Positions 14,929 through 39,274 of a stretch of 64,000 bases of DNA are shown here, in pieces. Origin of the DNA: Candidatus Kuenenia stuttgartensis (GTDB taxonomy: Bacteria > Planctomycetota > GCA-002687715 > CAIWVZ01); assembly GCA_945860915.1 (NCBI GenBank), contig CAMARR010000010.1, positions 1 to 64,000 on the forward strand, in the 5' to 3' direction. The notes beneath the pieces were generated by a model that saw only the letters and a list, made by a program, of their open reading frames with translations, was not told the DNA's origin and searched no databases. A program made the position numbers and the translations under genes. The stretch's first letter is position 1. Each line of letters begins with the position of its first letter.

Positions 14929-15032
14929 CCCTTCCTTGGACTTCTGCTGTGCCCGCCTTTGGTCAGCTGCGCTCGTCCTAATGATCGTTTTTGTCGGGGA
15001 CAGACTCGACTGGTGGCGTCTCCGCGTTCTTC

Positions 15033-15073
15033 GGGACGCACGAGGCAAGGCCGGCCGGGCGTCCCCACTTTTT
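15033..15073 (+). terminator. Candidate intrinsic terminator with alternative upstream pairing
   Basis: GGGACGC (15033-15039) pairs with GCGTCCC (15059-15065) and the stem is followed after three bases by TTTTT (15069-15073). The same 5' arm can instead pair with GCGTCTC at 15016-15022 (one G-T pair). Mutually exclusive stems ahead of a T-tract are the layout of an attenuator, but the 19-base loop makes the terminator weaker than usual. Confidence 0.4.
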
Positions 15074-15126
15074 AGTGAGGGCCGAGCGCCCTCCGCCAGA
15101 CGGCACTTTGGTGGATGTTCACGCCC

Positions 15127-32882: not shown

Positions 32883-33953
32883 ATGAAGGTTCAACTCCGG
32901 ATAGCAGACATCCTCGCCTTGACCGGCGGGGAGTTAGTGGGCGATGACCAGGCGGTCGTCACGGGCCTCAACGGTGTTGATCTCGCACGTGCAGGTGACC
33001 TTACGTTTGTCGATTCAGACAAATACCTGCCCCTTTTGAAGTCAACTTTGGCGGCGGTAGTGTTGGTCAGGTCTGCCGTCTCAGATTGCCGCGCTACTCA
33101 GGTCGTGGTCGCCGAGCCAAACGTCGCGTTCAACCGTATTTTGGCGAAGGTTGTTGATGCGGCGGACCGAGATCGTCTGCGTGGCGATGGGGGCGTGCAT
33201 CCATCTGCGACGGTACATCCATCAGCCAAGGTCGATTCAACCGCGGCCATCGGCGCACAGGCCGTGATTTGTCCGGGCGCGAGCATTGGGCCTCGCAGTG
33301 TCGTCGGCCCCCTCACGTATGTGGGGCACGGTTCGACGCTCGGTGCGGATTGCATTCTGCATCCGGGCGCCGTCGTGATGCATGGCGTCACGCTAGGCGA
33401 TCGTGTCACTCTTCAGCCGAACTGCGTCGTCGGATCTGACGGATTCGGATATGCAAAGAACGACCGCGGTCATTACGAGAAGATCCCACAAGTCGGCGGA
33501 GTGCTGATTGGCGACGATGTCGAGATTGGGTCGTCAACCACGATCGATCGGGGCCGTTTTGCCCCCACGCGAATTGGTCGGGGCACGAAGATCGACAATC
33601 TTGTGCAGGTGGCGCACAACGTGATTCTTGGAGAGGACTGCATCTTGGTTGCTCATTGCGGTGTCGCAGGTTCCTCTGAACTTGGCGATCGTGTGACGAT
33701 CGGCGCCATGACTGGCGTGACGGGCCACATCAAGATCGGAAACGATGTCGGCGTTGCGGCGATGAGTGGTGTCTCGAAAGGACTCGACCCTGGCCAGAAT
33801 TACCTTGGCATCCCAGCCAAGCCGATCTTGGAAGGATCAAAGATTCGCCTTTCCGCTGAGAAACTCCCCGCACTCTTGGCAAAGGTCCGTGAGCTTGAAC
33901 AGAGACTTGCGAAGCTTGAGTCAGCCAGCAGTCAACCTGGGACATCACGGTGA
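32883..33953 (+). CDS. lpxD: UDP-3-O-acylglucosamine N-acyltransferase
   Basis: LpxD (356 aa) adds the N-linked acyl chain in lipid A synthesis. An N-terminal uridine-binding domain (1-100, ending [11 protein letters not shown]) precedes a left-handed beta-helix of hexapeptide repeats ([19 protein letters not shown]...). [22 protein letters not shown] and the catalytic histidine region [11 protein letters not shown] are present. The C-terminus is a helix/coiled coil. GTGA overlap with the next gene. Confidence 0.95.
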
Positions 33954-35251
33954 AGCCTCAACGCACTCTGCGCAATCCCGTCACATTGCGCGGCGTGGGT
34001 CTCCACACCGGCAAGGACGTCACGATGGTCCTCAAGCCGTCGGAACCTGATTCCGGAATCGTTTTCGTGCGAACGGATATTCCAGGAGCGCCTCGACTTC
34101 CGCTTCTGCAGCAGCATGCCGAGAAACGCGACCGTCAATCGGCAGTTCGCCTGGGCGATGCCGAGGTAGGCACTGTAGAGCATTTAGCCGCAGCACTCTA
34201 TGCCTGCGGAGTTCATAATGCAGTCATTGACATCGACGGTGCTGAAGTGCCAGCGATGGATGGTTCGGCGATCGCTTTTGTTGATGCGATTCGCGAGGCC
34301 GGACGCATTGACCAGAAGGCTGAACGGCGAGTGCTCAAGCTCGATCGCAATCTGGCCGTCGTTGAGGGAGATTCAACACTCAGTGCGTTCCCGGGCGATG
34401 GAAGCCTCAGACTTTCGTACACACTCGACTACTCTGCTGCGGCCCCATGGCTTCGGCCCCAACATGTAGCGATGGTGATCGATGAAGATCGGTTCGCTCG
34501 CGATGTTGCGCCGGCGCGGACGTTCTGCCTCGAGTCCGAAGCGACGAAATTGCGCGAAATGGGCTTTGGCAGGGGCGCCGACACTCGGAACACCTTGGTG
34601 CTTGGCAAGGATGGCGTTCAAGACAATTCGTTCCGACTCGAAGACGAACCGGCGCGCCACAAGATGCTTGACCTCATCGGCGACCTATCAATGCTGGGCG
34701 CCGATCTTGAAGCGAAGATTGTCGCGGTCAAGACCGGACATCGTGCGAATCTAGAACTTGTCACACAGCTCAAAGATCGAATGGCGGCGGCTGAGCTCGA
34801 GGGTACAGCCGAGGCCTCGACATCCATCGATATCAACGAGATCATGCGGATTCTCCCGCATCGATATCCATTTTTATTCCTCGATCGCGTTGTGTCGGTC
34901 GACGGTGCCAAGCGCGCCGTGGCCATCAAAAACATCTCGGTTAACGAGCCGATTTTTCAGGGGCACTGGCCCGAAGACCCGGTTTTCCCCGGCGTGCTGC
35001 AGGTCGAGGCGCTCGCCCAACTGGCGGGTGTCCTGTTGATGCGCAAACTCTCTCATACGGGTAAGCGAGCGATGATTGTGGCGATTGAACACGTCAAGTT
35101 TCGCCAAGTGGTTCGACCGGGAGACCAGCTCAGGCTTGAATGTGAGACTCTCGAAGACCGTGGCGGTTATGCGAAGGTCTACGGGAAAGCCATGGTCAAC
35201 AACAAAGTCGCGAGCGCTGCCACATTGAAGTTCCTTTTGGTGAAGGCATGA
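33950..35251 (+). CDS. lpxC/fabZ: LpxC-FabZ fusion (UDP-3-O-acyl-GlcNAc deacetylase / 3-hydroxyacyl-ACP dehydratase)
   Basis: A 433-aa bifunctional protein. Residues 1-280 are LpxC, the committed lipid A step: [23 protein letters not shown] carries a zinc-site histidine and [15 protein letters not shown] the others. Residues 290-433 are FabZ, a hot-dog dehydratase of fatty acid synthesis: [14 protein letters not shown] and [20 protein letters not shown] hold the catalytic His and Glu. Such fusions are known in Bacteroidetes and some other diderms. GTG start overlaps lpxD; ATGA overlap with lpxA. Confidence 0.95.
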
Positions 35252-36054
35252 CGATGACGTCGAATTCTATCCACCCCACGTCAGTCATCGACTCAACCGC
35301 TCGAATCGGCGAGGGCGTCACGATCGGTCCTTGCTCGGTCGTCGGCCCGAATTCCGTCGTCGGCGATGGAACGATCGTTGGTCCGAGTTGCATCATCGGA
35401 CCGAATACCCGCCTCGGGCGTCGCAACGTGTTGCACGGGCATTGCGCGATTGGGGGCGACCCACAGGACAAGTCCTACAAAGGCGAAGAGGTCTTTCTCG
35501 TCATTGGTGATGACAACCATATTCGCGAGTTCGTGACAATCAATCGTGGGACATCCAAAGGCGATGGTCAAACACGGGTGGGACACCGCAACTTGTTCAT
35601 GGCGTGTTCGCATGTCGCTCACGACTGCGTCGTCGGTGATGGCGTGATCCTTGCGAACAACGTTTTGCTTGCGGGCCACGTCCATGTCGAGGATGGCGCA
35701 ACGTTGAGTGGTGCGGTCGCCGTGCAGCAGTTCGTCACGATTGGCCGGATGGCCTATGTCGGCGGACACGCATCAGTGAAGAAGGACTTTCCACCTTTCA
35801 TGAAGGAAGATGACCCCTCGCAGCCCCGCGGAGTCATCAACTTTATTGGTCTTCAACGGGGCGGCTTCTCTGATGACCAGATCAAAGCCCTCGATGAAGC
35901 CTTTCGAACGGTCTACGTTCGTAGCGACACTCTCGCCGAGGGAATCGCCCGAGTTACGGCGTCTGCGCCGCTGAGTCCGGAAGTTGCGCTCTTCATCGGC
36001 TCGCTTCAGCGATCCCATGCGGCGCGTGATGGTCGAGCTCGGGAGCCGCGCTAG
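35248..36054 (+). CDS. lpxA: UDP-N-acetylglucosamine O-acyltransferase
   Basis: LpxA (268 aa) catalyses the first step of lipid A synthesis, moving a 3-hydroxyacyl chain from ACP to UDP-GlcNAc. Hexapeptide repeats begin IHPTSVIDSTARIGEGVTIG; HDCVVGDGVILANNVLLAGHVHVEDGATLSGAVAVQQFVTIG contains the active-site histidine region. The C-terminal helices are present. The stop TAG overlaps the next GTG by one base. Confidence 0.94.
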   Translation: MTMTSNSIHPTSVIDSTARIGEGVTIGPCSVVGPNSVVGDGTIVGPSCIIGPNTRLGRRNVLHGHCAIGGDPQDKSYKGEEVFLVIGDDNHIREFVTINRGTSKGDGQTRVGHRNLFMACSHVAHDCVVGDGVILANNVLLAGHVHVEDGATLSGAVAVQQFVTIGRMAYVGGHASVKKDFPPFMKEDDPSQPRGVINFIGLQRGGFSDDQIKALDEAFRTVYVRSDTLAEGIARVTASAPLSPEVALFIGSLQRSHAARDGRAREPR

Positions 36055-37073
36055 TGTCGCGCCTCGGCGTTGCGGTCGTCGGGGCAGGGCGACTCGGGAG
36101 CATCCATGCACGGATCCTCTCGCAGATGCCGTCAGTGAAGCTCGAAGCCATCGTCGATGCCAACCGTGAGCAGGCCACCAAGGTCGCGAATGAACGTGGC
36201 GTCACCGCGTTCACCGACTGGCGAGATCTGCCACCCTCAGTCAAGGCCGCGATTGTTGCCGTTCCGACGACGCATCATGCTGAGGTAGCGACCGGGCTCC
36301 TTGAACGTGGCATTGCATGCCTAGTCGAGAAGCCTCTCGCGTCGACTCCCGAAGAAGGTCGTCGCATCATCGCTGCGGCGCGAGCGGCACGTTTACCCCT
36401 CATGACCGGCCATGTCGAGCGATTCAACCCAGTCGTGACCGCTGTACGCCAAATGGGCCTTAAGCCTCGCTTTCTTGATGCCACCCGCGTCTCTCCGTTC
36501 CCGTTTCGTTCGATGGACGTGGGAGTTGTCCTTGACGTGATGATTCACGATCTCGATATCGTGTTGCATCTAGTCGGAAGCGAAGTTGTTTCCGTGGATG
36601 CCGTCGGAGTGAATATCACTGGTGATTACGAGGATCTGGCCTCGGCTCGTTTGGTGTTTGCCAACGGCGCCGTGGCCAATCTCACCGCTTCGCGGCTTGC
36701 ACTCAAGACCGAGCGCAAACTCAGATTGTTTGCTCCCGACTTCTACGCGAGCCTCGATTTGGCCGGGAAGAAGGGGCGCGTTGTTAGGCCGGCTTCGGAT
36801 ATCGTAGATCGGATCCGCGCATTTAAGCCCGTTGGCATCGACACAATCGACGCAATGCGCCTGTCAAAGGCGGTCAGCGAGGTCGATCTTGAGATACGCG
36901 ATCTCGAGCCGTTGCGCGCTGAGGACGACGAATTTGTTGCGTCTGTGGTCGAGGGCCGCGATCCTCTCGTTACTGGCGAGCATGGACTGGCGGCGATGGA
37001 AGTGGCATCGCGTATCGTTGCATCCATTCACGCGCGACTTGAATCATCTCGGACAGCGGAGTCATCCCTATGA
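36054..37073 (+). CDS. Gfo/Idh/MocA-family oxidoreductase in the lipid A operon
   Basis: A 339-aa NAD(P)-dependent oxidoreductase. Rossmann motif GAGRLGSIH at 10-18, the EKP motif in CLVEKPLAST, then the substrate domain with GHVERFNPVV and MIHDLDIVLHLVG. In Acidithiobacillus and Leptospira a member of this family (GnnA) next to lpxA oxidises UDP-GlcNAc for 3-amino lipid A, together with aminotransferase GnnB. No aminotransferase is seen here. GTG start overlaps lpxA, so co-expression is near certain; substrate is unknown. Confidence 0.85.
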   Translation: MSRLGVAVVGAGRLGSIHARILSQMPSVKLEAIVDANREQATKVANERGVTAFTDWRDLPPSVKAAIVAVPTTHHAEVATGLLERGIACLVEKPLASTPEEGRRIIAAARAARLPLMTGHVERFNPVVTAVRQMGLKPRFLDATRVSPFPFRSMDVGVVLDVMIHDLDIVLHLVGSEVVSVDAVGVNITGDYEDLASARLVFANGAVANLTASRLALKTERKLRLFAPDFYASLDLAGKKGRVVRPASDIVDRIRAFKPVGIDTIDAMRLSKAVSEVDLEIRDLEPLRAEDDEFVASVVEGRDPLVTGEHGLAAMEVASRIVASIHARLESSRTAESSL

Positions 37074-37492
37074 GTCGAACTAGCATTCTTGCATTGGGAC
37101 TGCTCTTGGCGGTCGCCTGCTCCTCACCGGACGAGAATTCGGCGATCGTGGCTATCCGAGGTGCCGTAAGTGGTCCTAGTTTCTTCTTGGACCAACAGGG
37201 AGCCGTGGCACGCATCGCCTTAGTCCCCGACCTTCACGGCAGTCTTCTGACCAGCGTGAGCGTATCCGTCGCCGATGTTGAGGGACGAATTACTTCTTCT
37301 GCACCCACCGTTGTGTCTGATGGTCGCCTGGGCGATGTCACGACGACGCGTGGCTCTGAGACCATCGTTACGTTCACTCCGCCCGTTTCGGACGGTACTG
37401 TTGTCACGCTTGTTGTCACGGCTCCGGACAGGGCGCCGGCACCGTGGCGCTGCTTGATCGTCCCGAGCGTCAAGTCACCGAACGCGCCTTGA
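37070..37492 (+). CDS. Small lipoprotein at the end of the lipid A operon
   Basis: A 140-aa protein with a type II signal peptide (LALGLLLAVAC, cysteine at 17) and a beta-rich mature part with many Val/Thr/Ser. It overlaps the oxidoreductase by ATGA. Its stop TGA abuts the opposite-strand stop, forming TGATCA. I do not recognise the family; an outer-membrane or periplasmic accessory role is inferred from position. Confidence 0.75.
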   Translation: MSRTSILALGLLLAVACSSPDENSAIVAIRGAVSGPSFFLDQQGAVARIALVPDLHGSLLTSVSVSVADVEGRITSSAPTVVSDGRLGDVTTTRGSETIVTFTPPVSDGTVVTLVVTAPDRAPAPWRCLIVPSVKSPNAP

Positions 37493-39034
37493 TCAGCGAG
37501 GCGGGATCAGAACGAACACGCTAATGGCGTCGTCGATCTTGATCTGACGCTCCACGACGCGGCCGTCGTGGAGGCGACGAACCGCCTCTTGGCGTTCTGT
37601 GGTCGCATTCATGAAATCGTCCCACCTGCGCACCAACAGAATGACAGGGCGTTCGAATCCGGGATCTCCACGAACAGGAAGCTCGCGAGGCTCGACGGCG
37701 TTCAAGTCTGCGCCATAGGCCGAGTACGCGAGTCGGTGTTCGAAGATGTTGGGTTGACGCATCACAGCCGAGATCCAAGGTTCGCCGATGCCAAGCGTCC
37801 TGACTCGCGCAATCTCCTGACGAACGACGTCCACACCGCGCTCCATATCCTCTCGTGGCACTGCGAATGCCTGTGCGACTCCGCCGGCAAGAGAGCACAG
37901 CAGGAGGAAGCCTGCGAGCGTGTTGCGCAACTTGGTGTTTGAAATGGAGGCGAGTACCTCGGCCGCAACGAGAGGGAACGCGAAGGCTGCAATCGAGTAA
38001 TACTGGAGTCCGACCCGCCCCCAAGATCGAATCGAAAGGAAGCCGGTGAGCGGAACGAGAATCACCAAAAGCACGAACGCCTGCGCCGCGACGCGGCTTG
38101 TGAATGGACGTTCACTCGAAGTGGACCGCGCGCGCAACCACAGAATGGACCCGAAAGCCACGGCCCCCAGAGTCCCCGCCATCGCGCCGATTGCAAGTGG
38201 AACCCGCCACGAGCCTAGCGTGTTGATGCGGGGGGCGAACATCCGCAGCGGAGCCTCAAGAAACTCCCTCCATGCGAGGCCCGATGTTTGGACGTCGGTC
38301 GGCACAAGGTCATTCGGGTTCTCAATCGCCCACGACATGTAGCCTAGGATCCATGGCACGATGAGAAGCGCGCCAAGCGCGCCGGTTCCGATAAGCGCTC
38401 TCATCGAAAGCGGGGGGTTATCTCTGACGTGCCGCCATGGCCACGCTGTGAAGATTCGTGATGCGCCAATTCCGAGGACGGCGATCGTCATGAGGTATTG
38501 CGAATTCAGTCCAACGCCCACTGCGATTCCGAAAATCGTCCCACGGAGCCACGGAGGTCCATCGTCGCACCAAGCAGCCCACGTCGCGGTGACGGTCGCG
38601 AGCATGAGAAATGCATAGGGCCGCAGTTCCTGACCATAGTAGGTGAAGTAGGGCATCGTCGAGAAAAGACCGCACGCGACGACCACGCAGAAGCGTCCTC
38701 CATTGAGACGGCGGGCAATTGCGGCGAGCGGAATCAGCGTGAGTCCCGACACGAGGATCGTCAGGATCTTCGAGAAATGTGGGTGTTGCCAAGAACCGAC
38801 AACATGAATCGCGGTAAAGAAGAGCGGAGCATGAAAATCAAAATGTGTGTGCTCGAAAACGCCCGCGAGGTCTGGTTGGAGTCCGTGGCCGAGCGAGTGC
38901 AGTTCGTCTAACCACAAGCTCGACGTTGCGGCCACGACCTTGAGGAGCGTTCCGACTCCCAATGCCACGGCGAGAAACGTCCAGGGCAGCGGATTCGACG
39001 TCGATGCGGGGAGTTTTTCACGCGGCACCGTCAT
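37493..39034 (-). CDS. GT-C-type membrane glycosyltransferase (PMT/ArnT-like)
   Basis: A 513-aa polytopic protein with about eleven to twelve membrane segments. The first loop has SLWLDELHSLGHG, with the Asp-Glu typical of lipid-phosphate-sugar-using GT-C enzymes, and YYGQELRPYAFLMLA is the usual second signature. A soluble C-terminal domain of ~100 residues follows. The enzyme would transfer a sugar from a polyprenyl carrier on the outer face of the inner membrane. AGGGA precedes the ATG. Confidence 0.85.
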   Translation of the reverse strand: MTVPREKLPASTSNPLPWTFLAVALGVGTLLKVVAATSSLWLDELHSLGHGLQPDLAGVFEHTHFDFHAPLFFTAIHVVGSWQHPHFSKILTILVSGLTLIPLAAIARRLNGGRFCVVVACGLFSTMPYFTYYGQELRPYAFLMLATVTATWAAWCDDGPPWLRGTIFGIAVGVGLNSQYLMTIAVLGIGASRIFTAWPWRHVRDNPPLSMRALIGTGALGALLIVPWILGYMSWAIENPNDLVPTDVQTSGLAWREFLEAPLRMFAPRINTLGSWRVPLAIGAMAGTLGAVAFGSILWLRARSTSSERPFTSRVAAQAFVLLVILVPLTGFLSIRSWGRVGLQYYSIAAFAFPLVAAEVLASISNTKLRNTLAGFLLLCSLAGGVAQAFAVPREDMERGVDVVRQEIARVRTLGIGEPWISAVMRQPNIFEHRLAYSAYGADLNAVEPRELPVRGDPGFERPVILLVRRWDDFMNATTERQEAVRRLHDGRVVERQIKIDDAISVFVLIPPR

Positions 39035-39105
39035 GCGACTGTCCCTAAGTCCTTGATGGGTATCGTTTTAAAAAAATCGCTTAAATTGATCATGCGGGCT
39101 TGAGT

Positions 39106-39127
39106 TGTTCAACTATTTAGTTGAACA
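39106..39127. promoter_or_regulatory. 22-bp perfect palindrome, operator or hairpin
   Basis: TGTTCAACTA and TAGTTGAACA are exact inverted repeats separated by TT, in an AT-rich patch 72-93 bases upstream of the minus-strand GT-C start at 39034. On the minus strand a TTGAAC inside it could be a -35 element, with TCAATT 17 bases on. As DNA it looks like a repressor dimer site; as plus-strand RNA it is a 9-bp hairpin at the 5' side of the candidate small RNA. Confidence 0.5.
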
Positions 39128-39240
39128 TACTCCCGTTGGCAGTTCCAGCTGGGTGACCGGCGCGGTGCAGCTAACGACAAAACAAGATGCCCGAGAGGGT
39201 GCCAGGTGGTTTGCGCCAACTGCCTGATAATCGCTCGGCC

Positions 39241-39274
39241 GAGGCCCGGAAGTGTTCCGGGTCTCGTTTTTTTT
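39241..39274 (+). terminator. Strong intrinsic terminator on the plus strand
   Basis: GAGGCCCGGAA (39241-39251) and TTCCGGGTCTC (39255-39265) pair over 11 bp with one G-T pair and a GTG loop, followed by G and eight T (39267-39274). On the minus strand the hairpin is not followed by T, so it is not the terminator of the adjacent minus-strand gene ending at 39284. Confidence 0.85.

Follow-up and report, generated by a model that had tools for sequence, protein, structure and literature searches.

As listed in Table 1, the locus lies in the spacer between two genes for GT-C-like glycosyltransferases, GT-C1 and GT-C2, within the 64,000-nucleotide stretch of DNA that was analysed here and is referred to as the window. 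Both genes belong to the minus strand, as stated in the original prediction, and the plus-facing hairpin with a T8 tail that it described is present as well, with a perfect stem of 12 rather than 11 bp. This intrinsic terminator (P4), whose U-tract exists on the plus strand only, was the strongest terminator-like site on either strand when the whole 64-kb window was scanned for a stem followed by a T-tract. The ranking was judged from the listed stems and tails and is a judgement, since two rival sites have longer but mismatched stems or a poorer T-rich tail. The predicted absence of a nearby plus-strand gene was borne out: the only plus-strand genes upstream are those of the lpx operon, which ends 1.78 kb short of the terminator, where its last stop codon directly adjoins that of the convergent gene GT-C1 (37492/37493). 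The gene for a 140-amino-acid lipoprotein-like protein that closes this operon, its stop abutting that of GT-C1, gave no Pfam match, and a 136-amino-acid equivalent is found at the same place in congener G002.

Table 1. Features of the locus and their coordinates in the window.
Feature	Position	Strand	Description
lpx operon	33950-37492	+	lpxC-fabZ fusion, lpxA-like acyltransferase, GFO/IDH oxidoreductase, 140-aa lipoprotein-like protein
LpxC fusion gene	33950-35251	+	LpxC fused to FabA/FabZ-like domain; lpxA-like gene next
Lipoprotein-like gene	37070-37492	+	Last gene of lpx operon
GT-C1	37493-39034	-	GT-C-like (PMT_2) membrane glycosyltransferase; transcribed divergently from the RNA
Spacer between GT-C1 and GT-C2	39035-39283		249 bp; both flanking genes on minus strand
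AT-rich upstream block, TTTAARAAAATCGCTWAAA...	39066-39105	+	71-76% identical to congeners, versus 34-39% in adjacent 39034-39065
Proposed small RNA	39106-39274	+	169 nt counted from P1; ~145 nt should the 5' dyad belong to the promoter
P1, 5' hairpin or dyad	39106-39127	+	TGTTCA-N10-TGAACA, 9 bp
P2, capped hairpin	39134-39176	+	Capped by CUGG-GNRA-CCGG; 49% identity to relatives, same hairpin
P3, long hairpin	39191-39238	+	Loop TGCGCC; invariant tip; two compensatory pairs in lower stem
P4, intrinsic terminator	39240-39274	+	Perfect 12-bp stem 39240-39266, 3-nt loop, T8 at 39267-39274
GT-C2	39284-40711	-	GT-C-like glycosyltransferase (PMT_2), last gene in a tightly packed row of glycan genes on the minus strand

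The segment upstream of and including the terminator is predicted to be highly structured, with a folding energy of -75.4 kcal/mol (z = -4.86), and none of 200 shuffled sequences folded as well. Comparison with the congeners provided two distinct versions of the sequence, and in both the minimum-energy fold consists of four hairpins in a row (P1-P4), in which the terminator forms and no competing antiterminator was seen. The anticipated 5' hairpin is thus part of this fold, whereas the middle of the proposed architecture was incorrect. It had been suggested that a closing stem, GGCAGTT/AACTGCC, encloses two hairpins, one of them with a GAGA loop (CCCGAGAGGG), but the closing stem has a pairing probability of 0, forcing it costs 9.5 kcal/mol, and the relatives lack its 5' arm, while P3 takes the place of the GAGA hairpin in the optimal folds of both versions. 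P1 may be either a stabilising 5' hairpin, which is favoured by the conservation described below, or a dyad that overlaps the promoter, in which case the RNA would be shortened accordingly. As an operator of a wider regulon the dyad can be dismissed, because TGTTCA-N8-12-TGAACA occurred in G000 at this locus only, and at one or two unrelated sites in the congeners.

The sample for comparison comprised three genomes, that of the window and those of congeners G001 and G002, all apparently uncultured and metagenome-assembled. Among 40 relatives, full-length matches were found in these two congeners only, as one copy each and at the same place, and the order lpx operon, GT-C1, RNA, GT-C2 is retained in G002. 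Between G001 and G002 a block of 161 bp is identical, running from TGTTCA at the first base of P1 to the T-run of the terminator, and it matches the proposed RNA end to end. The flanking genes of the two congeners are 80.0% and 83.5% identical, with 52% and 66% identity at four-fold degenerate sites, and the longest identical run in their coding sequences is 35 nt. Recombination might in principle have contributed to such identity, but diverged bases directly outside both ends of the block argue for selection. The window is more distant: its RNA is 73% identical to that of the congeners, versus 55% for the genes, and the flanking proteins share 48-50% identity with those of G002. Identity to G002 is uneven across the gap, with 34% beside the start of GT-C1, 76% in the AT-rich upstream block, 79% in P1, 49% in P2, 71% in P3, 92% in P4 and 40% after the T-run, indicating that the edges of conservation are sharp and coincide with the proposed RNA. 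P2 shows an uneven tempo, being much changed between the window and the congeners and unchanged between the congeners themselves, and the window RNA differs from the congener versions by two indels, one of 2 and the other of 6 bases.

The differences that did accumulate preserve the fold. In P3, both partners of two lower-stem pairs have been replaced (A-U to G-C, and G-U to C-G) and one partner of a third, with a few one-sided changes over the fold as a whole, and P2 has been rebuilt from largely different sequence with its hairpin and GNRA cap retained (GUGA in the window, GAAA in the relatives). Compensatory changes among relatives, proposed earlier as a check on the RNA, were therefore found, yet this covariation is thin, since the three genomes effectively contain two distinct RNA sequences. 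For the same reason a shuffle control on the number of pairs (45 of 500 as good) carries little weight. Sliding the pairing partner by one column reduced pairing from 98% to less than 50%. When alignment columns were shuffled, the plus strand showed an alignment energy z-score of -7.85 and a structure conservation index of 0.70, compared with 0.44 on average after shuffling (0 of 300), versus z = -5.4 for the minus strand (11 of 300), and with the terminator removed the values were -4.96 on the plus versus -3.55 on the minus strand. The fold contains seven G-U pairs in the window and five in G002, which would be A-C mismatches on the opposite strand and thus place the RNA on the plus strand. 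Scores with a covariance model built from the three sequences were 163-198 bits on the plus strand and 13-27 bits, for partial matches, on the minus strand.

A covariance search of the relatives, also suggested by the original prediction, recovered full homologues with the same fold in both congeners and none further out. No other member was found among 12 further genomes of the order or class, nor, using stricter filters in a search of 392 genomes of the phylum, in the 389 others. Neither the model nor a terminator scan detected the RNA next to homologous GT-C genes from other genera (L034-L047), and the P3 motif was absent from the viral contigs searched. Hits in a single genus indicate that the family is either confined to this genus, within the reach of the data, or too fast-evolving to be recognisable at greater distance. 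Short DNA matches in G039 and on contigs L005 and L006 lie inside or beside protein genes and were discarded as chance, as were the matches to GGTTTGCGCCAAC in G004, G007 and G010, which lack the P3 flanks.

We compared the RNA with known systems. Neither this region of the window nor its homologue in G002 reached the gathering threshold of any Rfam 15 family, the best chance matches scoring 14-19 bits. A coding gene was rejected, since in the congeners the only ATG frame runs into a stop codon after three codons (ATG CCC GGG TAG) and the versions differ by the 2- and 6-base indels. Riboswitches and terminator leaders likewise place an intrinsic terminator behind a structured RNA, but in the proposed RNA no competing antiterminator was seen, and it lacks a co-oriented gene downstream. 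The latter is absent in all three genomes, where minus-strand GT-C2 ends just past the terminator, so that a riboswitch or attenuator leader was rejected and the earlier description of a riboswitch-like shape without a following plus-strand gene holds. What was found is a conserved structured spacer with an intrinsic terminator and no conserved open reading frame, the combination expected of an intergenic trans-acting small RNA. It resembles the small RNAs predicted in an orphan-terminator screen of Sinorhizobium meliloti (PMC2573895), which likewise combine a terminator without a co-oriented gene, a conserved spacer and a typical small RNA length. Unlike those RNAs it is from a planctomycete without detectable Hfq, has no demonstrated sequence relation to them and is a prediction from sequence. 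Hfq (PF17209) was not detected in any of the three genomes, which are 87-93% complete and in which the positive controls were found, and this argues against a usual Hfq-dependent small RNA.

The orphan terminator had originally been taken as the mark of a new small RNA, and the identical 161-bp block, the conserved fold and the compensatory changes support this well, the misdrawn middle part notwithstanding. We consider it probable that 39106-39274 encodes a free-standing, independently transcribed, Hfq-independent and genus-restricted structured non-coding RNA of ~145-170 nt that acts in trans. The RNA would be transcribed from its own promoter in 39066-39131, probably the conserved block just upstream, and would be ended by its own terminator. 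No match to the sigma-70 consensus was found upstream of the RNA, and inspection of 39066-39131 by eye gave several weak promoter candidates, none of them convincing; the AT-rich block nevertheless probably contains the promoter or promoters for the RNA, the divergent minus-strand gene, or both. A trans-acting RNA is the likeliest reading, and such an RNA would most likely work without Hfq, with the exposed invariant tip of P3 (GGUUUGCGCCAAC) and the GNRA-capped P2 as putative contact sites for a target RNA or protein; alternatively, a protein might read the P2/P3 fold. The RNA was previously unlisted and is a good candidate for a new small RNA family. More tentatively, it may represent a lineage-restricted structured RNA family of Planctomycetota that is constrained about as strongly as 6S RNA, Hfq-free, and possibly protein-binding or of a housekeeping type rather than an ordinary base-pairing small RNA.

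The genus retains AT-rich sequence (TTTAARAAAATCGCTWAAAWTG) at 39034-39105, in the interval that separates the RNA from divergent GT-C1. Read on the minus strand, this sequence looks like a weak GT-C1 promoter (TGAKCA-16-TAAAMY).

The main rival to a free-standing RNA is that P4 forms the distant 3' end of the lpx operon, so that ~1.78 kb of read-through would be antisense to all of GT-C1, in an excludon-like arrangement, and the structured segment would be a 3' untranslated region, processed or not. The convergence of the operon on GT-C1 suits this scenario, and from the sequence a 3'-UTR origin can be entertained, because no other strong terminator lies between the operon and P4 and the gene order is conserved in G002. 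However, the identical block begins sharply at the 5' hairpin and does not run through the antisense region, a separate upstream block is conserved in the manner of a promoter, and a mere terminator would not need P2 and P3; we consider this origin unlikely. A second possibility is that the RNA acts in cis, as an antisense transcript of the GT-C2/GT-C1 spacer; if both genes are co-transcribed on the minus strand, it would tune GT-C1 expression through perfect pairing. The RNA indeed lies exactly opposite this spacer, behind the closely packed row of glycan genes, but perfect pairing requires neither a conserved fold, nor compensatory pairs, nor letter-for-letter identity, and GT-C1 may be driven from a promoter of its own within 39040-39105, making such a role improbable. 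The related suggestion of an RNA antisense to the glycan genes by read-through is unsupported, since the terminator stops 9-10 bases short of the stop codon of GT-C2. The functional RNA might also be the minus strand, on which GT-C1 lies downstream, and serve that gene as a leader or intercistronic riboswitch. The minus strand does fold, as any inverted repeats do, but the loss of the G-U pairs, the low and partial covariance scores and a U-tract that serves the plus strand only make this very improbable. Finally, a spacer that folds by chance and carries a stray terminator, conceivable in that fold statistics from a single genome can mislead in GC-rich DNA, is the least credible explanation and is refuted by 161 identical base pairs between genes that are ~80% identical, and by the conserved boundaries, unless the two metagenome-assembled genomes share the block through an artefact.

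Very few small RNAs have been catalogued in Planctomycetota, and a review lists 8 annotated small RNA families for the whole Planctomycetes-Verrucomicrobia-Chlamydiae group, compared to 345 for Proteobacteria (PMC9029176). A sharply bounded candidate RNA gene that is conserved letter for letter, in a lineage without detectable Hfq, would offer a good entry to Hfq-independent RNA regulation, and the locus suggests that real genes can be spotted in raw sequence through an orphan terminator.

With 6S RNA (RF00013) the proposed RNA shares a similar length and a similar conservation within the genus. Identity with 6S RNA was rejected, because the fold is four hairpins in a row and not a long closed rod with a central bubble, and because RF00013 matches the window only at 14938-15121. 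This plus-strand match, which follows immediately after a gene identified by eye as pheT-like, is a divergent 6S RNA candidate in its own right: it is full length, scores 34.5 bits versus the Rfam cut-off of 46.4 (E ~2e-5) and folds to a long rod of -80.5 kcal/mol. The candidate is 78-79% identical between the window and both congeners, which as aligned show no difference from each other.
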